NCBI GenBank assembly: GCA_016223085.1
Contig: JACRPS010000008.1
Location: forward strand, 186,001-250,000
Reading direction: 5' to 3'
From: Chloroflexota bacterium
GTDB lineage: Bacteria; Chloroflexota; Anaerolineae; Aggregatilineales; Phototrophicaceae
DNA: 64,000 nt
Shown: positions 1,551 to 31,727 of the stretch, piece by piece
Numbering within the stretch: position 1 is the stretch's first letter
Layout: each line of letters begins with the position of its first letter
Position numbers and translations under genes: made by a program
The notes under the pieces: model-generated
Seen by the model: only the letters and a program-made list of their open reading frames with translations
What the model was told of the DNA's origin: nothing
Database searches by the model: none

Positions 1551-1601
1551 GCAGGCTTTTGTAGATCAGCCGCAGGTTTGAATCTGTGGCAGGACGGCAC
1601 C

Positions 1602-2408
1602 ATGATTGACGTACAACCGCAGGAACAAACCATAACCTCGGACGCTGGTGAGGCAATCTTGCAGACGCGCGGGCTGACGGTGGGTTATCACGGCCAGCCG
1701 CGAGCGATTGAGAACGTGAGCTTCAGCGTCCACGCCGGGGAGCGCGTGGCAATCATTGGCCCGAACGGCGCGGGCAAATCCACGCTGGTGAAGGCGATCA
1801 TGGGGTTGACGCCACCACAGCGCGGACAGATTATCCTGCCGGAGAATTTGCGCCTCGGTTACGTGCCGCAGCACGAAAGCGTGGACTGGAACTTTCCAGT
1901 AACGGTGCGCGACGTCGTGATGATGGGACGCGTACAGCAAATTGGCCTGTTCCGCTGGCCGACGCGCGCTCACTGGCGCATTGTCGACTCAGCGCTGGCG
2001 CGGGTGGACATGACCGGGCTGGCTAACCGGCAGATTGGGGAACTGAGCGGCGGGCAGCGGCGGCGGGCGTTTATCGCGCGCGCACTCGCCCAGGAGGCGC
2101 GGCTGCTGCTGCTGGATGAACCGTTCAGCGGGGTGGACGCCAGTGTGCAGGCCAGCCTGATGGACACACTCGACCGTCTCAACGCTGACGGCCTGACGAT
2201 CATCCTGACGACACACGACCTGGGACTGGCATTTAACCGCTTCGACCGGGTGATGGCGCTCAATCGCCGCGTCATCGCGTACGGCGCGGCGGGCGAGGTG
2301 TTCCGTCCGGCGGTGCTGTCGGCGCTGTACGGCGGGCGCTTCGCCACCTGGGATGAGCAGTCGCGCACGATGGTGTTTATTGACGATCATCACTGCGAGG
2401 GATGTTAA
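1602..2408 (+). CDS. znuC: Metal ABC transporter ATP-binding protein
   Basis: Cytoplasmic ATPase of a Zn/Mn importer. Walker A GPNGAGKST, signature LSGGQRRR, Walker B LLLLDEP and the switch His in TTHD are all present. The Q-loop-adjacent stretch ESVDWNFPVTVRDVVMMGR is characteristic of metal-cluster ATPases (ZnuC/TroB/SitB type). The ATG at 1602 was chosen because AGGACGG lies just upstream and the family needs few residues before the first strand; an in-frame start at 1578 is possible. The last residues, DDHHCEGC, are a small His/Cys tail that could touch metal. It should work with the binding protein upstream and, because no permease follows, perhaps with the one at 60950-61840. Confidence 0.9.
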   Translation: MIDVQPQEQTITSDAGEAILQTRGLTVGYHGQPRAIENVSFSVHAGERVAIIGPNGAGKSTLVKAIMGLTPPQRGQIILPENLRLGYVPQHESVDWNFPVTVRDVVMMGRVQQIGLFRWPTRAHWRIVDSALARVDMTGLANRQIGELSGGQRRRAFIARALAQEARLLLLDEPFSGVDASVQASLMDTLDRLNADGLTIILTTHDLGLAFNRFDRVMALNRRVIAYGAAGEVFRPAVLSALYGGRFATWDEQSRTMVFIDDHHCEGC

Positions 2409-2738
2409 TCAGGAAGCCCCTATTTCCGGCGGAGTGGTGAATAGAGGGGATATATCCCTGTCGGGCGAGATATATCCCGTCCCGACACGACCACGATTTT
2501 CACCATTTCCCATTCCTGCTGTACTGTCCTTCCCCACAACAGCAGAACAATTCAAACGCTTTCAGCAACCATTGACACCCGCTTCTGAAAACGTGTCGCC
2601 CGGCGTTGTTTTGCTTCCGAATCCGGGATGAGTATTGTCGTGCCAGCCACTTCTATAGCAAACTCTCACTATATTCCGCCGAAAGATGAAATATAATACT
2701 CCTAGACTCACAGTCTGCATGTGAGAACAGGGGAATTC
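2409..2738. other. Intergenic region upstream of the histidine kinase
   Basis: About 330 bases without a convincing gene. Two short GGGATATATCCC-like inverted sequences lie near 2447-2482. A perfect TATAAT at 2692-2697 sits 42 bases before the kinase start, but no good -35 box is placed 16-18 bases before it, so the promoter is only tentative. Confidence 0.4.
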
Positions 2739-5210
2739 ATGGGGAAAGCGCGAAGCCGTGAGCGCGTGACCGCTGTGTCCCGTCCGGGGGATACGCTGCA
2801 CCACGCCCACCTTGATTTACTGGAAGCGACAGGCGACGTTATTATCACAACCGATGCGGCGGGCTGCTGTACGGCTGTCAGCCCAACGGTTGAGTCGCTG
2901 CTGGGATGTACACCATCGGAGGTGGTCGGGCTGCCGGCCACCTCGTTTGTTGTACCGGGCTGGAAACGGCGTGTCCGCGCCTTTTTTGGCCGCCAGGTTC
3001 GAGAGCAGACGGCGCGCACCGTATTTGAGTTCCCGGTTGTCACTCGTTCCGGCCAGGAAAAGTGGGTGGAACAAACGACCGTACTGCTTGTAGAGGGGGG
3101 GCAGGTGATCGGCCTGCGCGGCCTGCTGCGCGACATCACCCGCCAGCGGCGTATGGAGCAGGAATGGCACGGCAACGCGGCGAATCGGGTAACACATATG
3201 AATCATTTTCAGGATTATATATGGTCCATTGACCGGCAGTACCGTGCCGTGACGTTTAACGAGGCGCTGCAGCAGCAGTTTAAGGCGTTGTACGGCGTAA
3301 CGCTGGAACCCGGTATCAACCTGCTTGACCATGCGCCAGCCGAACAGCAGGACTCATGGCGGCAGTATTATGACCGGGCACTCCGGGGAGAGCATTTCTC
3401 GGTCGAAGTGGACTTCTACTGGGGCGGCGTGTTTGTGTCCAGCGAGGTGCTGTTCGCGCCAGTCTACGATGAGGCTGGCGCGATCACCGGCGCGACAATG
3501 GTCAGCCGCAGTATCACGGAGCGCAAACTGGCCGAGAACGCCCTGCGCGAATCAGAAGAACGTTACCGCAGCCTGGTCGAGAACGCGACCGACATCATTT
3601 TTACCCTCGACGCCGACTTAAAAATAACCTCGCTGAACCCCACCTTTGAAACGATCACCGGCTGGCGGCGCGCCGACTGGCTGGGGCAGTCATTTGAGGG
3701 GTTGGTTTACACCGGCGATCTGCCGGCAGCCATAGATCATTTTCAGGAAGCACTGCATTCCGCCGGCGATTCCCAGGGGGCATTTGAACTGCGCCTGCGC
3801 TCCGTGTCCGGCAGGCTCGTAACCGGCGAGTTCAAAATTCACCGGCAGCTCGACCGTGGACAGGTGACCGGCCTGTTGGGCATCGCCCGCGATGTGACCG
3901 AGCGCAAACGCACCGATGCGGAACGCGACCTGTACATCAACCAACTGGAAGTGCTCCAGTATGTGGACACCGAATTAAGCCAGAATCTGAAGGTAGACTC
4001 GGTGCTGACGATGGCCCTGGACGCGGCGGTACGCCTGAGCAAAGCCGACGCAGGCGCGATTCACCTGCTGGATGGCGACCAGATGTGGGTGGCGCAGGTC
4101 ATTGGCGACTATCCGCGCACCCTGTTAGGGTCGCGCGTGCCGCTGCATCATGGCATTGTGGGCCGGGTGGTGCGCACCCAGCAGCCGGAATGGGTGGCCG
4201 ATGTCAGCCGTGACCCGGATTATCTCGACCACGTAAAAGCCACTCGCTCGCAGATCACCATCCCGCTAATCTCACGCGAGCGCACCATTGGTGTGCTGAA
4301 CGTACAGGCCAGCCAGCCGGAACGGTTTTCGCAGCGCATTTTTGATTTCCTCAAGCTGCTGACCGCGCGTATCGCCACCGCGATTGACAACGCCCGGCTG
4401 TACCAGATGTCACAGAACCAGGTGACGGAACTGCAGGCGCTGTACCAGCAGGTGAGCGAACTGGAACAACTGAAGACGGAAATGATTCGTATCGCCGCCC
4501 ATGACCTGCGGAATCCGCTGGGCGTGGTGTCCGGCTACACCCAGATGCTGGGCTGGGAACTGGAAGGCCAGCTTTCCGAACGCCACCGCGATCACCTGCG
4601 GATGATCCGGCAGGCAGTGGAACGGATTGACAAGATCACACGCGACATTCTGACCCTGGAACGAATCGAGCAGATGGCGCGTGGGATGCTGACCGAAAAG
4701 GTGGATTTGTGTAATCTGGTCGCGCTGGCGTTTGAAGAATTCCGGGAACAGGCCGCCGAGAAGGGGCTGGATTACCAGCTTGACAGCGCGCGCAGGCCGG
4801 TCATCGTTCAGGGGGATACGATCTTCCTGCGCGAGTCCATTGTTAACCTGCTGAGCAATGCGATCAAATACACCCCTAACGGGGGCAAAGTATGTGTCCG
4901 GCTGCACAGTGACGGTGGCAAGGCCATATTTGAGGTGCAGGATACTGGCTACGGCATCCCCCAGGAAAGCCAGGGCAACCTGTTTCAACCGTTCTACCGC
5001 GCGGTGACGAAGGAAACCAAAACGATACGCGGCACCGGGCTGGGGCTGCATCTGGTACGGCGGATTGTTGAACGGCACAACGGGCAGATGCGCTTTTCCA
5101 GCACCTACGGTCAGGGCAGCACCTTTGGCTTTGACATCCCGCTCACAACCCAAAAAACGAAAAGCAGCACCAAAACCCGGGCGGCACACAAACCAGCCGC
5201 CGTTTCCTGA
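2739..5210 (+). CDS. Soluble PAS-PAS-PAS-GAF sensor histidine kinase
   Basis: Cytoplasmic two-component kinase of 823 residues with no membrane segment. Domain order: PAS about 20-140, second PAS 150-270, third PAS 275-395 (opens with ESEERYRSLVENATDII), GAF 410-560, HisKA with phospho-acceptor His588 in IAAHDLRNPLG, then HATPase_c with N box NLLSNAIKYTPNG, G1 DTGYGIP and G2 GTGLGLHLVRR. It should sense an internal signal, possibly redox or a small ligand, through the PAS/GAF modules. ATG 2739 was chosen over the upstream GTG 2721 because AGGGG lies six bases before it. The receiver gene at 5299 follows 88 bases later but lacks a normal phospho-acceptor, so the true partner may be elsewhere. 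Confidence 0.92.
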   Translation: MGKARSRERVTAVSRPGDTLHHAHLDLLEATGDVIITTDAAGCCTAVSPTVESLLGCTPSEVVGLPATSFVVPGWKRRVRAFFGRQVREQTARTVFEFPVVTRSGQEKWVEQTTVLLVEGGQVIGLRGLLRDITRQRRMEQEWHGNAANRVTHMNHFQDYIWSIDRQYRAVTFNEALQQQFKALYGVTLEPGINLLDHAPAEQQDSWRQYYDRALRGEHFSVEVDFYWGGVFVSSEVLFAPVYDEAGAITGATMVSRSITERKLAENALRESEERYRSLVENATDIIFTLDADLKITSLNPTFETITGWRRADWLGQSFEGLVYTGDLPAAIDHFQEALHSAGDSQGAFELRLRSVSGRLVTGEFKIHRQLDRGQVTGLLGIARDVTERKRTDAERDLYINQLEVLQYVDTELSQNLKVDSVLTMALDAAVRLSKADAGAIHLLDGDQMWVAQVIGDYPRTLLGSRVPLHHGIVGRVVRTQQPEWVADVSRDPDYLDHVKATRSQITIPLISRERTIGVLNVQASQPERFSQRIFDFLKLLTARIATAIDNARLYQMSQNQVTELQALYQQVSELEQLKTEMIRIAAHDLRNPLGVVSGYTQMLGWELEGQLSERHRDHLRMIRQAVERIDKITRDILTLERIEQMARGMLTEKVDLCNLVALAFEEFREQAAEKGLDYQLDSARRPVIVQGDTIFLRESIVNLLSNAIKYTPNGGKVCVRLHSDGGKAIFEVQDTGYGIPQESQGNLFQPFYRAVTKETKTIRGTGLGLHLVRRIVERHNGQMRFSSTYGQGSTFGFDIPLTTQKTKSSTKTRAAHKPAAVS

Positions 5211-20692: not shown

Positions 20693-20725
20693 GCGGAACA
20701 CTGACAACTCACCGAGGAGATGATG

Positions 20726-21073
20726 ATGCGAAAGCTGCTGCCCGTATTGATTGTGCTTATCCTGTGCCTGCCGCTGCTGGCGTTGCCAGCCCACGCGCAA
20801 GAAGCCACCGCCGAACCAACGGCGGAAGCCACCACCAGTGCGGCTGTAACCGCCGAGCCAACGGCAGAAACGACAACCAGCGCGGAAGCAACTGAAGCGC
20901 CCACTGGCACAGTCACGGCTGTACCCACCGCCGCACCAGAAGGTGAAACCGGTGAAGCGCCGACTGGCCTCAGCACGCTGGTGCTGCTGATCGGCCTGGG
21001 CGCGGTGGCACTGGTCGGCCTTAGCAGTATCGCACGAAACAATCTGCAAAACAGGACAGGCAACAAATCGTAA
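20726..21073 (+). CDS. Small Thr/Ala/Pro/Glu-rich single-pass membrane protein
   Basis: I do not recognise this 115-residue protein. It has a signal peptide ending LPAHAQ, a low-complexity external segment of about 55 residues made of variants of EATAEPTAEATTS, and a C-terminal membrane helix (LSTLVLLIGLGAVALVGLSSI) followed by a short polar tail. The architecture is that of a surface stalk anchored at its C-terminus. It lies just before the octahaem cytochrome, whose C-terminal tail has similar composition. Three ATG codons stand in a row at 20720, 20723 and 20726; the third has the best distance to GAGGAG. Confidence 0.75.
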   Translation: MRKLLPVLIVLILCLPLLALPAHAQEATAEPTAEATTSAAVTAEPTAETTTSAEATEAPTGTVTAVPTAAPEGETGEAPTGLSTLVLLIGLGAVALVGLSSIARNNLQNRTGNKS

Positions 21074-21194: not shown

Positions 21195-22643
21195 ATGACA
21201 CCCAACCGACCCTCTGGACTGCTGCGCTCCGCCCGCGTGCTGATTATCGGTTTGCTGGCGATCATCATCGTACCGGGGCTGGCGCTGGTGATGTTTGCCA
21301 TCAACCGCGGCGTCGCACCCGGCGAAGAGCGCGTGGACTATCTGGCGAACAGTGTGGATGCCTGCGTCACCTGTCACCGCAACACCACGCCCGGCATTGT
21401 CGAACAGTACAGTCACAGCACGATGGCCGCCGCCAATGTGACGTGCAGCCAGTGTCACGAAGTCGCCGTCGACTACCCCGGCGCCATTGCCCACGAGGGG
21501 ACTTACGTCCTCAATTCCCCAACTACAGCCAAGTGTGCCACCTGCCACGCCGCCGAAGTGGCGCAGTTTAACCAGAGCCGTCATGGCCTGCCGGCTTACG
21601 TGGCGATGGTCGGCGTGGATGACATCCCGGCGGAACTGGTGACGATGTACGAGTCGATTCCTGAAGCGGAACTTGGCCCCATCCAGGCGCGGGCGGTGCT
21701 GTTCGACATCGAAGGCGAGGCCGTGACCCGCTTCGCCTGCGAAAGCTGTCACAACATCGGCAAACCCGCCGCCGATCTCTCGGTCGGCCAGTGCCAGAAG
21801 TGCCATATTCGGCACGAGTTCAGTTTGACACAGGCGCGTAAGCCAGAAACCTGCAACAACTGCCACATTGGGCCAGACCATCCCCAGTGGGAGATTTATC
21901 AGGAATCGAAGCACGGGATCGCCTACATGACCGGCGGCGAACACTGGAACTGGGAGGCCGAACCCGGTACGCTGACAACCGTTGACTTCCCCGCCCCAAC
22001 CTGTGCCATCTGCCATATGAGCGGCTTTGGCGCGTCCGGCACGACCCACGACGTAGGCGACCGGCTGACGTGGTATCTGTTTGCGCCGGTGAGTGAACGC
22101 CGTCCGGTGTGGCAGGACAACCGCGTGCGGATGCAAAACGTCTGCCGCGAGTGCCACAACAATAACTTCATCGCGGACTTTTACGAGGACGCCGACCGGT
22201 TGGTGCTGGCCATCAACGCCTGGGTGGAGGAAGGCAACGCCATCATGCAGCCGCTGCGGGATGCCAACCTGCTGACCGGCACGCCGTTTGACGAGCCGGT
22301 GGATTTCACCCATTACGAACTGTGGCATCACTGGGGACGCACCGCCAAGTTCGGCGCGTGGATGCAGGGCGCGGATTATACCCAGTGGCACGGCGCGTAT
22401 GAGATGTTGAGCGACCTGGCAGAACTGCGCGAGATTGGCCGCGAGCGGCTGGAAGCCGCCGGTTTACCAGTGCCCGAAATAATGTTGAAACCGAACACAC
22501 CGCCGCAAATCCCCGGCGAACCGGAAGCCACGCCGGACTCGGCAGCGGCGGTAGGCACAGCGGAAGCGACCATCGAAGCCATGCTGGAAGGTACGCCGGT
22601 CGGCGGGCAGGAAGCCACGCCCGAAGCGACGGCGGGAGGATAA
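21195..22643 (+). CDS. Octahaem cytochrome c of the hydroxylamine oxidoreductase (HAO) family, membrane anchored
   Basis: A 482-residue multihaem enzyme facing the outside of the membrane. One N-terminal helix (about 15-36) anchors it. Eight haem motifs are visible: CVTCH 57, CSQCH 84, CATCH 114, CESCH 182, CQKCH 200, CNNCH 220, CAICH 270 and CRECH 317. The blocks RHEFSLTQARKPETC, IGPDHPQWEIYQESKHGI, MSGFGASGTTHDVGDRL, ELWHHWGRTAKFG and DYTQWHG match HAO-family order and spacing. Members oxidise hydroxylamine or hydrazine, or reduce nitrite; Tyr395 in DYTQWHG is the candidate for the P460 cross-link, which needs alignment. A Pro/Thr/Ala/Glu tail (about 434-482) is unusual. The membrane gene at 22647 follows by three bases. 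Confidence 0.9.
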   Translation: MTPNRPSGLLRSARVLIIGLLAIIIVPGLALVMFAINRGVAPGEERVDYLANSVDACVTCHRNTTPGIVEQYSHSTMAAANVTCSQCHEVAVDYPGAIAHEGTYVLNSPTTAKCATCHAAEVAQFNQSRHGLPAYVAMVGVDDIPAELVTMYESIPEAELGPIQARAVLFDIEGEAVTRFACESCHNIGKPAADLSVGQCQKCHIRHEFSLTQARKPETCNNCHIGPDHPQWEIYQESKHGIAYMTGGEHWNWEAEPGTLTTVDFPAPTCAICHMSGFGASGTTHDVGDRLTWYLFAPVSERRPVWQDNRVRMQNVCRECHNNNFIADFYEDADRLVLAINAWVEEGNAIMQPLRDANLLTGTPFDEPVDFTHYELWHHWGRTAKFGAWMQGADYTQWHGAYEMLSDLAELREIGRERLEAAGLPVPEIMLKPNTPPQIPGEPEATPDSAAAVGTAEATIEAMLEGTPVGGQEATPEATAGG

Positions 22644-22646
22644 GCC

Positions 22647-23546
22647 ATGTACCACCTGGCAACCCTGTTCCCACCGGTGGAACGGCTGCGGCTGCCGGTC
22701 ACGCGCGATCAGCTTATGCTGCTGATGGCCGCCATCACCGAGTTGTTCCTGGGCATTGACATCTATCTGGCGCATATGATTAGCGGTCAGATCAAACCCG
22801 CCGAGTGGATCCCGATCATCTTTGGTGTAGTCGCCGGGGTGCTGCTGCTGCTGGCCGGGCTGATCGCCTTCCGCAACCGTCCGCTGGCGACCGTCATGGC
22901 AAATATCGTGTTTGTCGGCAGCATCGTCGTTGGGTTGATGGGCGCGTATTTCCACCTCGTCCGCGCCAACCTGATCGCCGGCAGCGCCCCAGCGGGGGAA
23001 GCGGTCGGGCTGCTGATCTGGGCGCCGCCGTTCCTGGGGCCGCTGTTTTTTTCGCTCAACGGCGTGCTGGGCATCAGCGCCGCCTGGGTGGAAGACCCAC
23101 CGGACAGCGGGCGGCTGCGGCTGCTGGGCGGGCGCACCGTGCAAATGCCGTACAGCAAAACCCGCGCCTATTTCCTGATCGTCAGCATCGGTATCCTGGC
23201 GACAGTCATCAGCAGCGTGCTGGACCACGCCCGGTCGCAGTTTGAAAACCCCTGGGTGTGGATTCCAACGATCTCCGGTGTGTTTGCCGTCGTTGTGGCA
23301 GTTGTGATGGGCGCGCTGGCACGTCCCACGCGGGAGGACATCGCCGTGTACGCCGCCACGATGATTCTGCTGTGCATCGTCGGCGTGGTCGGTTTCCTGC
23401 TGCACATCAATACCAATCTGGTCTCGCAGAATAACATCGTTGTCGAACGGTTCATCCGGGGATCGCCGCTGCTCGCGCCGCTGGTCTTCGCCAACTGGGG
23501 GTTGCTCGGCCTGATCGCCCTGCTCGATCCGGCAGAGACGGCATAA
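22647..23546 (+). CDS. Eight-helix membrane protein with internal duplication and four conserved-looking His; partner of the octahaem cytochrome
   Basis: I do not recognise a named family for this 299-residue protein. Eight hydrophobic segments are visible. The two halves are alike: His43-x10-WIP (Trp54) then His103 in the first, His194-x10-WIP (Trp205) then His253 in the second, with the second His 49 and 48 residues after the Trp. Each His sits at the end of a helix, a pattern suited to binding b-type haem or forming a quinone site. It starts three bases after the octahaem gene stop with GGAGGA upstream, so the two are coexpressed. A role as the quinone-linked anchor of the octahaem enzyme is inference. 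Confidence 0.8.
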   Translation: MYHLATLFPPVERLRLPVTRDQLMLLMAAITELFLGIDIYLAHMISGQIKPAEWIPIIFGVVAGVLLLLAGLIAFRNRPLATVMANIVFVGSIVVGLMGAYFHLVRANLIAGSAPAGEAVGLLIWAPPFLGPLFFSLNGVLGISAAWVEDPPDSGRLRLLGGRTVQMPYSKTRAYFLIVSIGILATVISSVLDHARSQFENPWVWIPTISGVFAVVVAVVMGALARPTREDIAVYAATMILLCIVGVVGFLLHINTNLVSQNNIVVERFIRGSPLLAPLVFANWGLLGLIALLDPAETA

Positions 23547-23760: not shown

Positions 23761-24285
23761 ATGGCAGAAGCAACCTGGGAGAAACCAGCAGCCCCGGCAG
23801 TCAAGACCGGCAGTGGTCGCCTGAAATTCCTGATCGGCGGCCTGCTGATTCTGGCCGCCGTCACATACCTGATTATTTCCGGCACGGGCGCCGGCGCGCG
23901 CTACTTCATGACGGTGGACGAACTGGTGAAGAACCCGGATTACGTTGGCAAAACGGTGCGTATCTCCGGCGCGGTCATCGGCGATACCATCCAGTACGAT
24001 GCCCGGAACCTCATCATCAACTTTACGATTGCCAATATCCCGACTGAATATGAAAATCTGGCGGAAGAACTCCACGCTGCCGCGACCGACCCCAGCCGGA
24101 CACAGCTTCAGGTACGCGTCGAAAATCAGGTGAAACCCGACCTGCTCCAGCACGAGGCGCAGGCGATTCTGACCGGCACGCTTCAGCCAGACGGCACCTT
24201 CCAGGCGACCGAACTGCTGCTGAAGTGCCCGACACGCTTTGAAGAAGCCGACCCCGGCAAGGTCATTACCAACCCGGAAGCGTAG
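23761..24285 (+). CDS. ccmE: Cytochrome c maturation haem chaperone CcmE, Cys-type haem site
   Basis: Periplasm-facing haem chaperone that carries haem from CcmC to CcmF. The 174-residue chain has one N-terminal membrane anchor (about 21-40) and the OB-fold domain with VGKTVRISGAVIGDTI and the block VKPDLLQHEAQAILTGTL. In most bacteria haem binds covalently to His in HxxxY. Here the matching site reads CPTRF, Cys156 to Phe160 (codons TGC and TTT). A CxxxY variant is known from archaea and some anaerobic bacteria; the Phe instead of Tyr is a further change. It opens the Ccm gene cluster. GGGAG lies twelve bases before the ATG. Confidence 0.92.
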   Translation: MAEATWEKPAAPAVKTGSGRLKFLIGGLLILAAVTYLIISGTGAGARYFMTVDELVKNPDYVGKTVRISGAVIGDTIQYDARNLIINFTIANIPTEYENLAEELHAAATDPSRTQLQVRVENQVKPDLLQHEAQAILTGTLQPDGTFQATELLLKCPTRFEEADPGKVITNPEA

Positions 24286-24297
24286 ATTAGCTCTATC

Positions 24298-24431
24298 GCC
24301 CAGGGTTAAACCCTGGGCTGATGAAAACTAAGCCCGCTAAAGGGGCTGCCGGTACATCGTGAGGGTTTACCTCAAGCTCCTTCAGTGAGCTTAACAGTAT
24401 TTTTGATAGCCGGATGGCTTTAGCCTCCGGC
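24298..24431. repeat. Composite hairpin repeat cluster upstream of ccmF
   Basis: Four hairpins in a row: GCCCAGGGTT/AACCCTGGGC (24298-24318), AGCCC-GCTAAAG-GGGCT (about 24331-24347), AAGCTC-CTTCAGT-GAGCTT (24374-24392), and GCCGGA/TCCGGC around TGGCTTTAGCC (24409-24431). An in-frame ATG at 24414 lies inside the last hairpin and is not taken as the ccmF start. Confidence 0.7.
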
Positions 24432-24470
24432 GGCGCTATCAAACAATCAACGAGTTCGAACGAGCGAATA

Positions 24471-26546
24471 ATGTTAGCTGAAATTGGTTTCGTCTCCACG
24501 TTCCTCGCCTTTGTGGCCTCCATTTACGCGATCATCGCTGCTGTGTATGGCGGACGCCAGCACTCGGAACGGCTGGTCGCCAGCGCGCGCAACGCCGCCC
24601 TGCTGACCTTCCCGCTGCTGCTGGTTGCCACCGGCGCACTGGTCATCGCTCTGATTCGGGGCGAATACCAGATGAGCTATGTGTGGTCGGTATCTGACCC
24701 GAACACGCAGCTTTTTTACCGCATCACAGCGCTGTGGGGGTCGCAAAAAGGCTCGATCCTGTTCTGGTGTTTTTTGATGAGCCTGTTCGCGGTAGGGGCG
24801 CTGGTGCTCAACTGGCGTACGCACCGCCGCCTCATGCCCTACGTCATCGCCTACACGATGGCGACGCTGGCGTTTTTCCTCGGTCTGGTCGTCTTTTACG
24901 AAAACCCGTTTGAACGCTGGTGGATTGTGGGCGAAGAAGCCGTTGAAGCCGCGCTGATTCCGGCGGGCGCGGTCGCGCCCTCGATGCAGCGGCTGGCGGA
25001 AACGGCCAACGGCCTCAACCCGCTGCTGCGGCACTTCGGCATGATTATTCACCCGCCGATGTTGTACCTGGGTTTTGTCGCCTTCACCATCCCGTTCGCG
25101 TTTGCGATGGCGGCGCTGGCCTCCGGCGACCTGTCCACCAACTGGATTAAGGCGACGCGCCGCTGGTCACTGGTGGCGTGGCTGTTCCTCGCGTTGGGGC
25201 TGCTGCTGGGCGGGCGCTGGGCGTATGACGTGCTCGGCTGGGGCGGTTACTGGGGCTGGGACCCGGTCGAAAACGCGGCTTTCCTGCCCTGGCTGATCGG
25301 CACGGCCTTCCTGCACAGCGTCATGATTCAGGAAAAACGCGGGATGCTGAAGGTGTGGAACATGTTCCTCATCATCGGCACGTTCAGCGCCGTGATCTTC
25401 GGCACCTTCGCCACCCGCAGCGGCCTGATTGACAGCGTGCATTCGTTCGCCCGCAGCGAGATCGGCTTCCCGATGTTTTTCTTCTGGGCGGCGATTACGG
25501 TCATTTCGGTTGGGCTGATTTTGTGGCGCTGGAATCGCGGCGAACTGAAAGACGAACACCCGTTTGTGAACATTCTCAGCCGCGAATCGCTGTTTGTGCT
25601 GAACAACGTGGTCTTTGTGCTGCTGTTTGTGGCAATCTTCTGGGGCAGCTTCGGCGCGCCGGTCATTTCCGAACTGTTTATGGGTGAGGACATCACGCTC
25701 GGCCAGGATTATTTCCTGCGCGTGACGCCGCCGCTGTTTGTGGCGCTGTACATCCTGATGGGCGTCGCGCCGCTGTCGGCCTGGGGCGCGACCTCGCTGC
25801 GGCGGCTGGGTAAAGCGCTGCTGGTGCCACTGGCGCTGACGGCGCTGTTCCTCGTGATTATCGTGGTCACGCAGCACACCAGCGACCCCGGCGCGCTGTT
25901 TGGCTACGGCATCGTCAGTCTGGCCGGGTTTGTCGCCCTGTATGAAACTTACCGGGGCGCGTCCGCGCGCCGCCGCAGCATCGGCGAAAGCTGGCCGCGC
26001 GCCGTGCTGGCGCTGTTCACCCGCAACCGCCGCCGCTATGGGGGCTACATCGTCCACCTGGGCATTACGATCATCGGCATCGGCGTGATCGGCAGCACTC
26101 TGTTCCAGCAGACGACGCAGCGCACGCTGGCCGTTGGCGAAAGCGTGGACTTCGGCGGGTACACCCTGCGCTATGACAACTTCACCAACGCGATTGCCGA
26201 CGATGGCCGCCAGATGCAGATCGCCGATGTGACGCTGATACGCAACGGGCAGGTGCTGACCACCATGCGCCCGCGCCACGACATTTACCCGACGCAGCCG
26301 ATGACCATTGCTGCGTCGTACAGTACGCTGGAAAACGACTTCTACGTGCTGCTGGTTGGCTGGGAAGAAACCAACGCCAACAGTGCCACGTTTAAGATGT
26401 ACATCAACCCGTTGATTAACCTGGTCTGGTGGGGCGGCCTCATCCTCATCCTGGGGACGCTAATCGGCGCATGGCCGACCGAGACGCTGCCGGTCACACT
26501 GCGCGAACCTGCCGCCGTCAACGGTCGAGCGAGGGCAAAGGCATGA
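24471..26546 (+). CDS. ccmF: Cytochrome c haem lyase subunit CcmF
   Basis: Integral membrane core of the haem lyase that joins haem to apocytochrome c. The 691-residue protein has about 14 membrane helices and the family's tryptophan-rich haem-handling motif GWGGYWGWDPVENAAFLPW around residues 255-275. The flanking external His are seen in HFGMIIHPPMLYLG and QEKRG...DSVHSFARSE. ATG 24471 (MLAEIGFVSTF) matches where CcmF proteins begin. The stop overlaps the next start as ATGA, so ccmH is translationally coupled. It lies within the E-F-H order found in other System I clusters. Confidence 0.95.
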   Translation: MLAEIGFVSTFLAFVASIYAIIAAVYGGRQHSERLVASARNAALLTFPLLLVATGALVIALIRGEYQMSYVWSVSDPNTQLFYRITALWGSQKGSILFWCFLMSLFAVGALVLNWRTHRRLMPYVIAYTMATLAFFLGLVVFYENPFERWWIVGEEAVEAALIPAGAVAPSMQRLAETANGLNPLLRHFGMIIHPPMLYLGFVAFTIPFAFAMAALASGDLSTNWIKATRRWSLVAWLFLALGLLLGGRWAYDVLGWGGYWGWDPVENAAFLPWLIGTAFLHSVMIQEKRGMLKVWNMFLIIGTFSAVIFGTFATRSGLIDSVHSFARSEIGFPMFFFWAAITVISVGLILWRWNRGELKDEHPFVNILSRESLFVLNNVVFVLLFVAIFWGSFGAPVISELFMGEDITLGQDYFLRVTPPLFVALYILMGVAPLSAWGATSLRRLGKALLVPLALTALFLVIIVVTQHTSDPGALFGYGIVSLAGFVALYETYRGASARRRSIGESWPRAVLALFTRNRRRYGGYIVHLGITIIGIGVIGSTLFQQTTQRTLAVGESVDFGGYTLRYDNFTNAIADDGRQMQIADVTLIRNGQVLTTMRPRHDIYPTQPMTIAASYSTLENDFYVLLVGWEETNANSATFKMYINPLINLVWWGGLILILGTLIGAWPTETLPVTLREPAAVNGRARAKA

Positions 26547-27070
26547 ACGTATTTGATAATATGCGTAGGGACACGATATATCGTGTCCCTACATTCCTGA
26601 TTTTCCTGCTGCTTCTCCTGGCGCTGGCCGTGCCGGTCACCGCGCAGAACTCGCCTACATCGGGCACGGTCACGGCGGACGACGTGAACGCCATTGCCAA
26701 ACAGATGTACTGCCCGGTATGCGAGAACATCCCGCTGGACGTATGCAGCACGGCGGCCTGCGCCCAGTGGCGCGACGAAATCCGCATCCAGCTTCAGCAG
26801 GGGCGCACCGAGCAGGAAATCAAAAACGATTTTGTAGCGCGGTATGGCGACCGGGTGCTGGGTACGCCGCAGGACCCGACGCTGCGGGCGCTGTCGCTGG
26901 TCACGCCCTGGATGATCGCGGCGCTGGTGGCGCTGGTCGCGGCGGTGGTGCTGGTACGCTGGTGGCGCGGACGCGGCACGGCGGCGCTGGCAACAACCGG
27001 CAGCGTGGCCGCGCCATCGGACGACGATTACCGCGCCCGGCTGGAACGCGATTTGCAGGCGCGACGATAA
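26543..27070 (+). CDS. ccmH: CcmH, apocytochrome c thiol-handling subunit
   Basis: Membrane-anchored CcmH/Ccl2-type protein that reduces apocytochrome CxxCH thiols and presents them to CcmF. Signal peptide residues 1-31 end VPVTAQN, followed by the short three-helix domain with YCPVC, the family's redox pair, and a second pair in DVCSTAAC, then one membrane helix (about 119-138) and a short cytosolic tail. Start ATG 26543 overlaps the ccmF stop as ATGA. Residues 8-17 of the signal peptide (RRDTIYRVPT) are encoded by an inserted dispersed palindrome at 26565-26592, keeping the frame open and the N-region positive. Confidence 0.92.
   Translation: MNVFDNMRRDTIYRVPTFLIFLLLLLALAVPVTAQNSPTSGTVTADDVNAIAKQMYCPVCENIPLDVCSTAACAQWRDEIRIQLQQGRTEQEIKNDFVARYGDRVLGTPQDPTLRALSLVTPWMIAALVALVAAVVLVRWWRGRGTAALATTGSVAAPSDDDYRARLERDLQARR
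26565..26592. repeat. Dispersed palindrome inside the ccmH signal-peptide codons
   Basis: Perfect palindrome with arms GTAGGGACACGATA and TATCGTGTCCCTAC, identical to the copy at 27074-27101 just after the same gene. It is read in frame as RRDTIYRVPT. Confidence 0.9.
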
Positions 27071-27073
27071 ATC

Positions 27074-27101
27074 GTAGGGACACGATATATCGTGTCCCTA
27101 C
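27074..27101. repeat. Dispersed palindrome, GGGACACGAT type, after ccmH
   Basis: Perfect 28-base palindrome, identical to 26565-26592. It begins four bases after the ccmH stop. Confidence 0.9.
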
Positions 27102-27123
27102 AGCGTAAAAAGGTTTAACGACG

Positions 27124-27579
27124 ATGCACCCCTTTTTTCAGGATTACCTTGACCGGCTGGCGGAACTGCATCTGGAGCTGGAGAAAGCAATTGATGGGCT
27201 GTCGCTGGACGCGCTCCAATGGACGCCTGACCCTGACATCAATTCGCTGACGGTGCTGGTGGTGCATGTCACCGGCGCGGAACGGTACTGGATTGGCGAC
27301 GTGGCGCTGCAACTGCCGTCGAATCGCAACCGCGCCTCGGAGTTCGAGGCCGAGGGCTTAAACGAGGAAGCCCTGCGCGAACGTTTGCAGGCCAGCCGCG
27401 ATTTCGCCCGCGAAGCGCTGGACCGGCTGCGGCTGGAAGATTTGGACCTACCACGCGCTTCGTCCATGGACGGGCGTGAAGTAACCGTCGGCTGGGCGCT
27501 GCTGCACGCGCTGGAACATACCGCGCAGCACGCCGGCCACGCGCAGATGATGCGCCAGTTGTGGCAGCAGCAGATGTGA
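27124..27579 (+). CDS. DinB-family four-helix protein
   Basis: A 151-residue soluble protein of the DinB/YfiT (DUF664-like) fold, a four-helix bundle that binds a divalent metal through three His. Candidates are His in VVHVTGAERYWIG near residue 43 and two in HALEHTAQHAGHAQMMRQLW near the C-terminus. The superfamily contains bacillithiol and mycothiol S-transferases as well as many uncharacterised members, so a thiol-transfer role is possible but not shown. It sits inside the Ccm cluster between ccmH and the thioredoxin-like gene; no known Ccm function fits it, so it may be a passenger. Confidence 0.85.
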   Translation: MHPFFQDYLDRLAELHLELEKAIDGLSLDALQWTPDPDINSLTVLVVHVTGAERYWIGDVALQLPSNRNRASEFEAEGLNEEALRERLQASRDFAREALDRLRLEDLDLPRASSMDGREVTVGWALLHALEHTAQHAGHAQMMRQLWQQQM

Positions 27580-27595
27580 TTGCAACCGGACTCTC

Positions 27596-27732
27596 GCCGA
27601 GGGCTAAAGCTCCTCGGCTGATGAAAACCAAGCCCACTGAAGGGGCTTACAGAGATTTAGCGCAAAACAGCACCTTTAATGGGCTTAAACAGCCGAAGGC
27701 TGCATAATCAGCCAGGGGTTTTGAACCCCTGG
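27596..27732. repeat. Composite hairpin repeat cluster upstream of the CcmG-like gene
   Basis: Hairpins GCCGAGG...CCTCGGC (27596-27618), AAGCCC-ACTGAAG-GGGCTT (27630-27648) and AGCCAGGGGTT/AACCCCTGGC (27710-27732), with the linking text GATGAAAACCAAGCCC shared with the cluster at 24298. Confidence 0.7.
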
Positions 27733-27753
27733 CGGTGACGAGGGATTAATTCG

Positions 27754-28335
27754 ATGACCGACCTGAATCTACCGTTTGAGACCGAACCGTCTGAATCCGA
27801 ACCCAAGCGCGGCTTCCGGCTGGGCCTGGGGTCTATTGTGCTGCTGGTGGGTTTCCTGCTGGTGGCAATGGTGTTTGGCTTCGCGCTGGCGCAGCGCAAC
27901 CAGGCACAGCCACAGGCCGGTGCGGCGCCGGACTTTACGCTGACCACGCTCACGGGCGAAACCTATAAGCTGTCCGACCTGAAAGGCCAGGTGGTGGTCA
28001 TCAACTTCTGGGCCAGTTGGTGTGGGCCATGCCGTGTCGAAGCGCCGGAACTGCAAAAAGTCTGGGACAGCTATAAGGATAAAGGTGTGATGTTCCTGGG
28101 CGTGGCCTACACCGATACCGAACGCGGCGCGAAAGCCTTCATCCAGCAGTACAACCAGACCTATCCCAACGGTCTGGACATCGGCACGAAGATTTCCGAC
28201 CTGTACAACATCCAGGGCGTGCCGGAAACGTTTATTGTCAACCAGAAGGGCGAAGTGGTGGAGTTCATCATGCAGCAGGTGAACGAAACCGAGTTGAGCC
28301 GGATTCTTGACCGGGTTCTAACCACCGGGGCATAA
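27754..28335 (+). CDS. Membrane-anchored thioredoxin-like protein of CcmG/ResA type
   Basis: Thiol:disulfide reductase of the TlpA/ResA/CcmG group that keeps apocytochrome c Cys reduced. It has 193 residues: a cytosolic Glu/Ser/Pro start, one membrane helix (about 27-46), then the thioredoxin fold with the active site WCGPC (Cys90, Cys93), the insert KDKGVMFLGVAYTDTE and the cis-Pro loop GVPETFIV. It reads APDFTLTTLTGETYKLSDLKG before the fold, as in ResA. It is three bases upstream of the CcmI-like gene. The name CcmG would be given by its place in the cluster. Confidence 0.92.
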   Translation: MTDLNLPFETEPSESEPKRGFRLGLGSIVLLVGFLLVAMVFGFALAQRNQAQPQAGAAPDFTLTTLTGETYKLSDLKGQVVVINFWASWCGPCRVEAPELQKVWDSYKDKGVMFLGVAYTDTERGAKAFIQQYNQTYPNGLDIGTKISDLYNIQGVPETFIVNQKGEVVEFIMQQVNETELSRILDRVLTTGA

Positions 28336-28338
28336 ACC

Positions 28339-28728
28339 ATGAGTATTGAGGGCCTGATTGTTTCACTGGTGATCGTCCTGGCGACCGTGCTGTGGATTGT
28401 TTCACCGTTCTGGCAGCGGCAGGTTGGCAGCGCCGCCAGTGATGCCATTATCCAGAAGCAGCACGAACGGCTGCTGGTCTATTACGAGCGCGTGCTGACC
28501 AATATCCGCGATCTGGACGAAGACTACAGCACCGGCAAAATGCAGGCCGGCGATTATGAAACTGAGCGCGAAGAATGGGTGCAGCGCGGTGTGCAGGTGT
28601 TGAAGGCGTTGGACGAACTTGACCAGCATCGCCTGATCGTGCCCGACGCCGACCAGGAAGCGCTCGACCATGCCATTGACGACGCGATTGAACAGGCGAT
28701 TGCCACCCACCGCCGGACTGCTCACTAG
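28339..28728 (+). CDS. CcmI-like membrane protein (short form)
   Basis: A 129-residue protein with one N-terminal membrane helix (about 5-26) and a soluble helical part. The stretch NIRDLDEDYSTGKMQAGDYETEREEW matches the conserved start of the CcmI/CycH cytosolic loop, where that protein has LDFDYxxGKxxxxDY. The TPR part of full-length CcmI that grasps apocytochromes is missing, as in short homologues of many non-proteobacterial clusters. It begins three bases after the thioredoxin gene and its TAG is followed directly by an ATG, though the next cytochrome more likely starts at 28765. Identification rests on motif and context. Confidence 0.8.
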   Translation: MSIEGLIVSLVIVLATVLWIVSPFWQRQVGSAASDAIIQKQHERLLVYYERVLTNIRDLDEDYSTGKMQAGDYETEREEWVQRGVQVLKALDELDQHRLIVPDADQEALDHAIDDAIEQAIATHRRTAH

Positions 28729-28752
28729 ATGATTCGGTTTCATTACGGCAAC

Positions 28753-28775
28753 AGGGGCGGGTTTATGACCCGCCC
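28753..28775. repeat. Dispersed hairpin enclosing a start codon, GGGGCGGGT type
   Basis: Arms GGGCGGGT (28755-28762) and ACCCGCCC (28768-28775) with loop TTATG that contains most of the ATG at 28765. The purine-rich stem is also the only candidate ribosome site for that start. Confidence 0.7.
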
Positions 28776-29463
28776 TTCCCTTGTGCTGGCCGCACTGCTG
28801 CTGGCGGCGTGCAGCCCACCGAAGCCAGTAGCAACCATCACCCCTGCTGCCACCCTCGTGCCGGACATCGGCTATCCGCAAACGCCGCCGGATGTGGCGT
28901 TAGGCGCGCAGATTTTCGCCAAACGCTGTACAGCCTGTCATGGCGAAGCGGGGCTGGCGGACGGCCCGCTAGTGCGGGCGAAGGCGATTCCCGCGCCACC
29001 ACAGTTGGCCGCCTGGGATACCGGCTGGGACAAAACGCCGGCGGAACGTTTTGCCTTTATCGCCGTCGGCAACATGGACAAAATGATGCCGCCCTGGAAC
29101 GAGGCGCTGTCCGAGCCGGAACGCTGGGCCGTGACGCTGTTCACTTACACGCTGCATACCACGCCGGAGCAGCTTGAACAGGGACGCAACCTGTGGGCGG
29201 CGGAGTGCGCCTCCTGTCACGGCGCGGACGGGCGCGGTACGGCGGAAGCTGACATCAATTTGAGCGACCCCCGGCATATGATCGGCGTGAGCGACGAAAC
29301 GTTGTATAACAGCATCACGCATGGCTTGGCGGACGGTTCGCACGTCTTCGCTCAACTGGACGACGATCAGCGCCGCTCGCTGGTCGCCTATACCCGTTCC
29401 CTGAGCGTTGCCAACCCTGACGCCATCGGCCAACCGCTTCCCGCCGAAACCACCGCCCAGTGA
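28765..29463 (+). CDS. Di-haem cytochrome c lipoprotein
   Basis: A 232-residue lipid-anchored electron carrier. Signal peptide and lipobox (LLLAAC) place the lipidated Cys at about residue 16, followed by a Pro/Thr linker. Two class I haem domains carry CTACH and CASCH, with a probable Met ligand in DKMMPPWN for the first; the second may use Met of the DPRHMIGV block. Start ATG 28765 gives a normal lipoprotein signal; an ATG at 28729 would add twelve residues and spoil it. It lies inside the Ccm cluster, seven bases before ccmA, so it may be a main client of the system. Confidence 0.9.
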   Translation: MTRPSLVLAALLLAACSPPKPVATITPAATLVPDIGYPQTPPDVALGAQIFAKRCTACHGEAGLADGPLVRAKAIPAPPQLAAWDTGWDKTPAERFAFIAVGNMDKMMPPWNEALSEPERWAVTLFTYTLHTTPEQLEQGRNLWAAECASCHGADGRGTAEADINLSDPRHMIGVSDETLYNSITHGLADGSHVFAQLDDDQRRSLVAYTRSLSVANPDAIGQPLPAETTAQ

Positions 29464-29470
29464 GATCATC

Positions 29471-30223
29471 ATGACTCAGCACTCAGCACTCAGCACTCAG
29501 CACTCACTGATTGAAACCCGCGCCCTTGTGAAAGCCTTCGGGATGCTGCCCGTACTGCGCAAGCTCGATTTGAGCATCGCGCGTGGCGAGTTTGTCGCCC
29601 TGCTCGGCCCGAACGGCAGCGGCAAATCCACGCTGCTGCGCCTGCTGGCCGGACTGAGCAAGCCGACCGCCGGGGATATTCTCGTCGGTGGCTGGAAGCT
29701 GCCGCAGGAAGCCGCCCCCGTGCGCGCGCAGATCGGCATGGTCAGCCACAAGGTGCTGCTGTACGAAAACCTGAACGCCCGCGAAAACCTGCGTTTCTTC
29801 GCCCGGCTGTACAATCTGCCCGCCGCGAAAGCCGATGAGCGCATCACGCAGCTTCTCGACCAGGTGGGGCTGGCGCGTCGCACCCACGACCCGGTGCGGA
29901 CATTTTCGCGCGGGATGCAGCAGCGCCTCAGCATCGCCCGCGCCCTGCTCCACAACCCGGATATTCTGCTGCTGGACGAGCCATACACCGGGCTGGACGT
30001 GGATGCCTCGGCGGTGCTGGATAACCTTTTGCGCGATGCACACAAAGGCGGGCGCACGATTATCATGTCCACGCATGAATTAGGCCGTGCCGCCGCGCTT
30101 GCCAGCCGCGTCGTCATCCTGTCGCGCGGAGTCGTCGGCTATGACGCACCAACGGCAGGTCTGGACGGACTGCGTTTATCTGCGATTTACACCGAAACCA
30201 CCAGCATGGCAAGTGCGCGATGA
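29471..30223 (+). CDS. ccmA: Haem/Ccm ABC transporter ATP-binding protein CcmA
   Basis: ATPase that drives release of holo-CcmE from the CcmC-haem complex. Walker A GPNGSGKST, signature SRGMQQRLSIARAL, Walker B ILLLDEP and switch TH in MSTHE are intact; 250 residues. The first twelve codons after the ATG consist of four copies of the heptamer ACTCAGC plus a partial copy, giving TQHSALSTQHS, which has no counterpart in the family; the conserved part begins at LIETRALVKAFG. No better start exists before the conserved region, although GTG 29528 is possible. Its stop overlaps ccmB as ATGA. Confidence 0.9.
   Translation: MTQHSALSTQHSLIETRALVKAFGMLPVLRKLDLSIARGEFVALLGPNGSGKSTLLRLLAGLSKPTAGDILVGGWKLPQEAAPVRAQIGMVSHKVLLYENLNARENLRFFARLYNLPAAKADERITQLLDQVGLARRTHDPVRTFSRGMQQRLSIARALLHNPDILLLDEPYTGLDVDASAVLDNLLRDAHKGGRTIIMSTHELGRAAALASRVVILSRGVVGYDAPTAGLDGLRLSAIYTETTSMASAR
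29474..29509 (+). repeat. Heptamer tandem repeat (ACTCAGC x4) inside the ccmA 5' codons
   Basis: Four exact ACTCAGC units (29474-29501) followed by ACTCACT. The unit length is not a multiple of three, so gain or loss of one unit would shift the ccmA reading frame. Confidence 0.9.
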
Positions 30224-30897
30224 AAACCCCCTTCCTGAAGGCCGTCTTCAGCATCGTCCGCAAGGACTTACAGATCGAACTCCGCAGCCGCGAACTGGTC
30301 AGTTCGATGGGGCTGTTTGCGCTGTTGAGCATCCTCATCTTCAGCTTCGCGCTGGAACTCGACCGCAACGCCCGCCGCGAAGCGATCAGTGGCGTACTGT
30401 GGGTGACAATCGTTTTTGCCAGCGTGCTTGGCCTCAACCGGTCGCTGGCGATGGAGCGCGACCAGGGCAACCTGGACGCCATGCTGCTGGCGCCGATTGA
30501 CCGCGTGGCGATTTTCTTCGGCAAACTGATCGGCAATCTGGTGTTCGCTCTGGTCGTCGGCCTGCTGCTGCTGCCGATCATGACAATCCTGTATAATTAC
30601 AATCTGTTCCAACCCTGGCTGATCGCCGTGCTGCTGCTGGGCACGTTCGGCTTCTCGACGGTCGGCACGCTGCTGGCGATGATGACGGTGCAGACCCGCG
30701 CCCGCGAAAGCCTGCTGCCCATCGTCATGATGCCGATTGCGCTGCCGGTGCTGCTGGCCGCCGTGCGCGCCTCCACCAATATCCTGACCGATAACCCCAT
30801 CGCCGACTGGATTGCCTGGGTGCAAATCCTGGTGGTGGTGGACATCATTTATCTGGTGGTGTGTTTCCTGCTGTTTGAGTATGTGATTGAGGAGTAG
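30220..30897 (+). CDS. ccmB: Haem exporter membrane subunit CcmB
   Basis: Six-helix permease subunit that pairs with CcmA in the CcmABCD complex. The 225-residue chain opens with the cytosolic FSIVRKDLQIELRSRELVSSM, the CcmB signature that contacts the ATPase, followed by helices to the end; the block LLPIVMMPIALPVLLAAV is also typical. The start overlaps the ccmA stop (ATGA). A ~65-base gap separates it from ccmC, with a possible internal promoter. Confidence 0.93.
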   Translation: MKTPFLKAVFSIVRKDLQIELRSRELVSSMGLFALLSILIFSFALELDRNARREAISGVLWVTIVFASVLGLNRSLAMERDQGNLDAMLLAPIDRVAIFFGKLIGNLVFALVVGLLLLPIMTILYNYNLFQPWLIAVLLLGTFGFSTVGTLLAMMTVQTRARESLLPIVMMPIALPVLLAAVRASTNILTDNPIADWIAWVQILVVVDIIYLVVCFLLFEYVIEE

Positions 30898-30901
30898 TTT
30901 T

Positions 30902-30929
30902 TTGCAATTTTTAGTAGATATGCTACGAT
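30902..30929 (+). promoter_or_regulatory. Possible internal promoter of ccmC
   Basis: TTGCAA (30902-30907), 16 bases, then TACGAT (30924-30929) preceded by TGC, an extended -10. It would give ccmC-ccmD their own transcript, about 30 bases of leader. Confidence 0.4.
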
Positions 30930-30962
30930 TTTCGCAGTCAGAAATGGAGGAGGGAGAACGCG

Positions 30963-31727
30963 ATGAGTGCTGTATCGAAGGCAACACCGGCCACCACCGA
31001 GCAGGCACAGACGACCGGCAGGCCGCTAGGGCTGACGATTCTCACCGTGCTGACCATTATCGGCGTTGCTGCCGGATTGTACATGGCATTGGGATACGCC
31101 CGCACCGATCTGGAACAGGGTGACGTGCAGCGTATTTTTTACATTCACATGCCGGCGTTTATCGGCGCGTTTGTGGCGCTGCTGGGTACGGTCATCGGCG
31201 GCATCATGTACCTGCGCACCCGCAACGTCAAATGGGACAAGCTGGCTTTGGCAGGCGTGGAAGTCGGTATCGCGCTGGCGCTGATTAACCTCATCACCGG
31301 CATGGTCTGGGCGCGCCCGATCTGGAATACCTGGTGGACATGGGACCCGCGTCTGACCTCGGAAGCGATTATGATCTTGACCTACGCCGCCTACGTCATG
31401 CTGCGGCAGGGCATCGAAAACGTGGAGCAGCGCCGCCGCTTCGCCGCCGTGTACGGCATCCTGGCGTTTGTGACCGTCATCATCACGCTGGTGATTACCC
31501 GCGTCCGCCCGGACACGATTCATCCGGTCGTGATCGGCCCCAGCGTGCAGACCGACACCGCCCAGGGCGCCTTTGAAGTCGCGGCCAGCACCGGCGTCCG
31601 TATGGCACTGATGGTCAACATGCCGGTATGGGCGCTGCTCGTGCCGGTCACGCTGATGTGGTACCGTATCCGCCTGGAAAATCTGGCGGAGCGCGTCCAG
31701 GCGCTGAAGCTGAAAGCCTTGAGCTAA
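30963..31727 (+). CDS. ccmC: Haem-handling protein CcmC
   Basis: Six-helix membrane protein that attaches haem to CcmE. The tryptophan motif WWTWDPRL (124-131) lies in the second external loop; external His62 (YIHMP) and His in DTIHPVV are the expected axial ligands of the bound haem. Length 254 matches the family, with a ~20-residue polar N-terminal tail. GGAGGAGGG before the ATG is a strong ribosome site. ccmD follows 15 bases later. Confidence 0.95.
   Translation: MSAVSKATPATTEQAQTTGRPLGLTILTVLTIIGVAAGLYMALGYARTDLEQGDVQRIFYIHMPAFIGAFVALLGTVIGGIMYLRTRNVKWDKLALAGVEVGIALALINLITGMVWARPIWNTWWTWDPRLTSEAIMILTYAAYVMLRQGIENVEQRRRFAAVYGILAFVTVIITLVITRVRPDTIHPVVIGPSVQTDTAQGAFEVAASTGVRMALMVNMPVWALLVPVTLMWYRIRLENLAERVQALKLKALS

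Follow-up and report, generated by a model that had tools for sequence, protein, structure and literature searches.

Genes at the locus

The window, a 64,000-nucleotide stretch of DNA from a Chloroflexota bacterium, contains two adjacent genes, one for a multihaem cytochrome and one for a membrane protein, with genes for a bc-type complex upstream and for cytochrome c maturation downstream (Table 1).

Table 1. Features at the locus and their positions in the window
Feature	Position	Strand	Basis
Octahaem c-type cytochrome, HAO superfamily, 482 aa	21195..22643	+	Eight CxxCH, PF13447, predicted structure
Eight-helix membrane protein, 299 aa, two four-helix halves, proposed quinone-coupling partner	22647..23546	+	Model, hhalign, alignment
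CcmE, CcmF and CcmH genes after the pair	within 23761-31727		Pfam
Cytochrome b gene, 598 aa	15641-17437		Pfam
ORF of 117 aa upstream of the octahaem gene	20720-21073		

The octahaem cytochrome is a member of the HAO superfamily. Its CxxCH motifs lie at residues 57, 84, 114, 182, 200, 220, 270 and 317, whereas 20,000 residue shuffles of the same protein averaged 0.02 such motifs and never exceeded 2; reading the sequence gave no CxxCK, all eight motifs being CxxCH. The family PF13447 matched with E 4.6e-32 and 111.8 bits (Pfam cut-off 21.9), and the NCBIfam hydrazine dehydrogenase model scored 91.1 bits, below its cut-off of 900. PDB sequence matches included IhOCC (4qo5, E 4.2e-29), Nitrosomonas europaea HAO (E 4.9e-28), and anammox HAO-like and HDH chains, and IhOCC was the clear leader when a profile of 21 octahaem relatives was searched (160 bits versus 116 for HAO). 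The structure model (pLDDT 74.7, pTM 0.67, poor at residues 205-249) also matched 4qo5 best, with Z 19.0 over 345 residues at 4.2 Å and 26% identity in the structural alignment. Further matches were 6h5l (Z 15.4), whose title describes a reducing HAO-like complex of Kuenenia, 4n4j (Z 15.3, tied), HAO 4fas (Z 14.9) and HDH (Z 13.9). The same model predicts an N-terminal helix at about residues 9-39 that would be compatible with a membrane anchor. An earlier note on this DNA, made from the sequence alone, had described eight haem motifs, HAO-family blocks and a membrane anchor, all of which agree with these results; grouping with an unrelated multihaem family, the outcome it had named as contrary, did not occur, as Pfam and structure both place the protein in the HAO superfamily. 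Just upstream of the octahaem gene, the 117-aa ORF begins with a signal-like segment, is rich in Thr, Glu, Ala and Pro in the middle and has a hydrophobic stretch at the C-terminus.

The membrane ORF starts 3 nt past the octahaem stop, and its model (pLDDT 87.6, pTM 0.87) has eight membrane-type helices, of which helix 4 is broken and helix 8 is short. The earlier note had recognized both the eight helices and a duplicated pattern of histidines. This duplication was recovered when the two halves were compared by hhalign within the octahaem-linked group (probability 98.3, E 1.5e-14). The protein has five histidines in all, and four of them (His43, His103, His194 and His253) were invariant in 71 of 71 octahaem-linked rows and in 17 of 17 rows of homologues linked to GMC oxidoreductase genes, described below. 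The alignment of the octahaem-linked group covered 70 of the 80 loci of a wider scan, with nine truncated or broken loci and L094 left out, and the GMC-linked group of the joint alignment covered 17 of 23 frames, with fragments and half-length frames left out. Across the joint alignment, 27 columns had at least 85% conservation in each group, including the four invariant histidines, and the motifs G96-x-x-G99-x-x-x-H103 in helix 3 and G246-x-x-G249-x-x-x-H253 in helix 7 were conserved in both. In the model, the four histidines lie toward the same end of helices 1, 3, 5 and 7. Paired histidines with glycines one and two turns away are typical of a membrane haem b site. Basic residues are found at the N-terminus and in the 2-3 loop, which suggests that the histidine-bearing end faces outwards, on the octahaem side; loop 7-8 is basic too.

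Database comparisons gave the membrane protein no known family. No Pfam or NCBIfam model matched over cut-off, and there is no CxxCH in its 299 residues, so it is not a tetrahaem cytochrome of the NapC/NrfH type. A PDB sequence search with the membrane profile gave nothing better than E 0.15, all matches being to receptors or glycoside hydrolases. Foldseek (best E 0.08) and VIA (best 3dby_B, Z 15.1, 3.8 Å over 223 residues, the next at Z 9.6) gave the model no convincing fold match among solved structures, and no relative was found on viral contigs.

Conservation of the gene pair

The octahaem and membrane genes form one unit. Of 61 genomes compared, the window's and those of 60 relatives, 21 have the octahaem gene, and exactly these 21 have the membrane gene as well (21/0/0/40). 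At all 21 loci, the membrane gene lay 3' of the octahaem gene on the same strand, at a distance of about 300 nt or less, one copy being cut by a contig end. A wider scan with one genome per species gave 207 stretches with an octahaem relative, 80 of which were examined. These were mostly from Chloroflexota, with a few titled Verrucomicrobia, Deltaproteobacteria, Tectomicrobia, Gemmatimonadetes, Acidimicrobiia or Actinomycetota. All 80 octahaem relatives kept eight CxxCH motifs, and in 79 of the 80 loci the membrane gene followed on the same strand, with a called gap of -181 to 125 nt. At the 80th (L025), the contig ends 146 nt past the octahaem gene, so that the membrane gene is cut within its first 47 codons. 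The adjacency on which the earlier note had staked the pairing is thus conserved within this branch.

Some loci had features of their own. Six with non-Chloroflexota titles (L049, L056, L058, L077, L087 and L093) nest among Chloroflexota in the tree, reflecting either gene transfer or wrong binning. One genome (G025) contains an intact-looking membrane copy cut by a contig end, together with short fragments on other contigs (C33, C34 and C17), one of which has two stops.

The P460 tyrosine position

The tyrosine that cross-links haem 4 in N. europaea HAO is Tyr467, which lies within GGWTYTEGW (counted from the alignment). The earlier note had suggested Tyr395 of the octahaem protein for this role, but alignment placed it two residues off. 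With both MAFFT and hhalign, Gln397 stands opposite the P460-type tyrosine of Ruegeria HAO, the exact P460 column being uncertain because the invariant His399 is close by, and Tyr395 is aligned with a Phe/Trp two places before that tyrosine. We therefore rejected Tyr395 as the cross-link. Gln397 and Tyr395 are both invariant in octahaem alignments of 21 rows and of 48 rows; alignment A5 covers 47 of the 80 loci.

The P460 tyrosine, a mark of oxidative HAO and HDH, is absent from the octahaem protein at the aligned place. HAO-family members without the tyrosine cross-link are reductive according to the available text of two sources (PMC12758564; PMC8940962), one of which reports tyrosine-less relatives from a microbial mat (PMC8940962). 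In the accessible part of another, a tyrosine-less HaoA with a NapC-type protein is proposed as a quinol-linked nitrite reductase (PMC3701875). Judged by its alignment, and by its structural matches to IhOCC and then to the reducing HAO-like 6h5l (tied with 4n4j), the octahaem protein looks like a member of the tyrosine-less, reductive side of the family.

Neighbouring genes

The bc-type complex is a local neighbour of the pair and no fixed partner. As the earlier note had pointed out, genes for a Rieske protein (E 1.1e-9) and for cytochrome b (E 3.4e-37) are near the pair in the window; by Pfam they lie 4-6 kb upstream, but this arrangement is not conserved. Upstream of the pair in the 80 loci, Rieske recurred at 6, cytochrome b at 7, and the window's two cytochrome c genes at 8 each, and we rejected the complex as part of the system. 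Downstream, most cytochrome c maturation genes recurred at 7-9 loci and CcmA at 13, a count that may include other ABC proteins. These figures should be read against the 50 loci that have more than 5 kb of sequence upstream and the 48 that have more than 6 kb downstream. In the window, the ORFs that follow CcmE, CcmF and CcmH are presumably TlpA, CcmA, CcmB and CcmC, judging from how they read. In the 598-aa cytochrome b, the Pfam matches stop near residue 408, leaving about 190 C-terminal residues, the last part of which is soluble-looking and repetitive.

We also scanned 116 of 349 candidate neighbour ORFs. The commonest families among these were Crp-type regulators, with 9 members, and no nitrogen-metabolism gene recurred beside the pair among the 116.

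Homologues of the membrane protein in GMC operons

Relatives of the membrane protein occur in a second type of operon. A tblastn match on a Granulicella plasmid (24.6% identity, E 6e-4) directly precedes a gene for a gluconate-2-dehydrogenase-subunit-3 protein (PF13618, E 8.6e-27), near a GMC oxidoreductase gene, and a search of 301 genomes of the phylum with the membrane gene gave weak matches in 23 Chloroflexota genomes. We gathered regions from 20 of these 23, which with Granulicella made 21 loci. In 20 of the 21, a membrane homologue was immediately followed by the genes for gluconate-2-dehydrogenase subunit 3 and a GMC protein, three of the GMC copies being cut by contig ends; the remaining locus (L140) is itself cut. 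Neither of the two dehydrogenase genes was found by tblastn in any of the 80 octahaem loci. The membrane-family profile matched the Granulicella protein (WP_013573000.1) with E 3.8e-25 and the best Chloroflexota frame with E 4e-27, and three GMC-linked proteins had 37-45% identity between their halves. By these sequence comparisons, the homology of the octahaem-linked and GMC-linked membrane proteins is firm.

GMC/gluconate-2-dehydrogenase modules are dehydrogenases, and their membrane proteins presumably pass electrons into quinone, so the flow in the octahaem unit may run in either direction.

Several GMC-linked copies are not full-length fusions. The halves appear as two overlapping frames in L136 (5897-6960) and L155 (6170-7203), and only one half was seen in L145 (5937-6506). 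These may be unfused ancestors or frameshifts.

Distant octahaem relatives

Octahaem relatives outside the main group differ in their partners. A search of 400 genomes in the phylum with the octahaem protein gave five strong matches, and in two of these (L160 in G244 and L159 in G126) the membrane gene was absent from the whole genome; pairing is therefore limited to one branch. The octahaem relatives in Desulfobaculum (L132) and Desulfosarcina (L133), and L160, each have a NapC/NirT-annotated or NrfH-like gene directly before them. The NrfH model scored 71-73 bits on the NrfH-like genes of these distant relatives, below its cut-off of about 134. L160 itself (1492-3554, - strand) is a divergent octahaem after such a gene (71.3 bits against a cut-off of 134.2). 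On the Desulfosarcina ovata plasmid (2457-13067), the NapC/NirT and octahaem genes, the latter product with 37.5% identity, lie among norR, NO reductase, hemerythrin, cupin and Crp/Fnr genes. L159 (1498-2868, - strand) has a lipoprotein-like start and stands alone.

In the tree, the membrane-linked octahaems grouped with L159, and the NapC-linked ones and IhOCC fell outside (support 85/91 for the outer group), the partner state of IhOCC having been set to "none" by default without a look at its neighbours. The tree had 45 rows, including 31 of the 80 and 7 of the 21 octahaem rows; its outer branches are very long and few deep forks are well supported.

By eye, an ORF upstream of L160 resembles a Crp/Fnr regulator, and an ORF at 2928-3383 of the L159 locus appears ferritin-like. 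A further HAO-like octahaem (L165, 760-2449, in G062) extends over two frames, has a hydrophobic C-terminus and lies beside cytochrome c genes.

Nitrogen and quinone genes in the genomes

NrfA was found in 2 of 21 octahaem genomes and 19 of 40 others (p 0.004), but this difference disappeared when counted by genus (3/18 versus 6/20, p 0.45), and we dropped the idea that the pair replaces NrfA. We do not count the rarity of NrfA as support, because of the by-genus result and because the window's own genome contains NrfA besides the octahaem pair. NirK showed no association with the octahaem gene (6/21 versus 12/40, p 1.0). The NapC/NrfH family (PF03264) was present in 33 of the 61 genomes, which says little because it is spread over genomes with and without the octahaem gene. 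Hcp was over cut-off in none of the 61 genomes, with 13 weaker matches, and the controls gave signal.

Genes for quinone synthesis were found in a minority of the octahaem genomes. MenD was over cut-off in 6 of the 21, the window's not among them, and a futalosine-pathway family in 3 of the 21, including the window's. Most of the remaining genomes had neither over cut-off.

A proposed quinone-coupled unit

We propose, in a reading that we consider evenly balanced between right and wrong, that the products of the two genes form a single redox unit at the membrane for the quinone-coupled octahaem reduction of a small nitrogen compound. The eight-helix protein would be the link to the quinone pool, where menaquinol is its most likely electron donor, and two b haems, held by the four invariant histidines towards the outer face, may lie on the electron path. 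Electrons would then pass to the anchored octahaem cytochrome, which has no P460 tyrosine and would reduce nitrite, NO or hydroxylamine. The membrane protein would fill the role that NapC/NrfH has for other octahaem reductases and for NrfA, with an unrelated fold, and the same membrane family would also serve GMC dehydrogenases. The quinone link, already suggested in the earlier note, is indirectly backed by two sets of neighbours: those of the GMC-linked homologues, and the NapC/NrfH-type genes before distant octahaems. Several points speak against this reading, namely the lack of Hcp over cut-off in the 61 genomes, NrfA in the window's genome, the absence of a recurring nitrogen gene among the scanned neighbours, the solitary L159, the lack of a convincing solved fold match for the membrane protein, the direction suggested by the GMC-linked homologues, and the small number of octahaem genomes with menD or futalosine-pathway genes over cut-off, which makes the quinone type doubtful. 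With a probability that we would place slightly short of even, the eight-helix protein defines a new family of quinone oxidoreductase subunits, with two b haems, four invariant histidines and a duplicated four-helix fold, attached to octahaem nitrogen reductases in one branch and to GMC dehydrogenases in the other.

The unit could instead run in the oxidative direction, with hydroxylamine or some other reduced compound as the substrate that the octahaem protein oxidises, and with quinone reduced by the membrane protein, as is presumed for its GMC-linked homologues. That these homologues accompany dehydrogenase modules, and that the cytochrome belongs to the HAO superfamily, would fit such a unit, but the P460 place holds no tyrosine and the closest match is IhOCC, and we consider the oxidative direction improbable. 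AMO matched in none of the 21 genomes, but this says little as the controls were silent too. We also consider it unlikely that the membrane protein carries no redox cofactor and serves as an anchor or in assembly, with the octahaem protein fed by the bc complex or by soluble cytochromes. Rieske, cytochrome b and cytochrome c genes near the pair in the window and a few relatives, and the maturation genes downstream, would fit this arrangement; against it, the octahaem protein already has its own predicted anchor helix, the four histidines are invariant across two operon types, and the bc genes are not kept beside the pair.

A different question is whether the substrate is a nitrogen compound at all. 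The membrane protein could be a quinone link for an octahaem protein that acts outside nitrogen chemistry, for example on a sulfur compound or as an electron relay. The lack of a recurring nitrogen gene among the scanned neighbours and of an association with NirK is consistent with this, as is the view of the authors who described the Ignicoccus octahaem proteins, to whom, in the available text, the in vivo role is speculative (PMC4429474). The HAO-like core and the NO-related neighbours of the Desulfosarcina relative argue for nitrogen, and we give a substrate of another kind a low probability.

Comparison with known systems

Reductive HAO relatives help to set the fate of fixed nitrogen, which is either kept as ammonium or lost as gas, and the electron route of these mostly Chloroflexota octahaem enzymes has no name. 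The pair may be a new way of linking HAO-type enzymes to membrane electron carriers. A shared membrane module, if true, would explain how both octahaem enzymes and GMC dehydrogenases reach the quinone pool in Chloroflexota and on the Granulicella plasmid, and would provide a marker that separates quinone-linked octahaem enzymes from oxidative HAO. Neither the pairing of an octahaem with an eight-helix protein nor its kinship to the GMC-operon protein is described in the literature searched, whose coverage leaves out most subscription journals; the search likewise gave no paper on the GMC-linked membrane protein.

The nearest functional parallel is HaoA with a NapC/cM552-type partner, known from reverse-HURM in Nautilia profundicola and from epsilon-HAO. 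There, according to the available text, a tyrosine-less octahaem likewise has a proposed dedicated membrane quinol partner (PMC3701875). That partner is a tetrahaem cytochrome of the NapC/NrfH type, whereas the eight-helix protein here is unrelated to it and has no CxxCH. Hcp, the second enzyme of the reverse-HURM route from nitrite through hydroxylamine to ammonium, is the gene that was over cut-off in none of the 61 genomes. NrfHA is likewise encoded by two genes, one for a periplasmic multihaem enzyme and one for its quinol partner in the membrane, as far as the accessible text describes it (PMC12285233), but NrfA is a pentahaem protein, usually with CxxCK, and NrfH is a tetrahaem cytochrome.

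For the octahaem protein, the best match in both sequence and structure is IhOCC of Ignicoccus hospitalis, whose structure paper calls it membrane-associated in its title (cited in PMC8840924), although that protein is archaeal and distant. For the membrane protein, the closest comparison is the "hypothetical protein" of the Granulicella GMC operon, which is homologous and has the same duplication and the same four histidines. It differs in having a flavoprotein-type dehydrogenase module as its partner, and some GMC loci carry half-length, four-helix frames. The octahaem protein is of a known kind, and what appears to be new is its fixed eight-helix partner and the kinship of that partner to the membrane protein of GMC operons.
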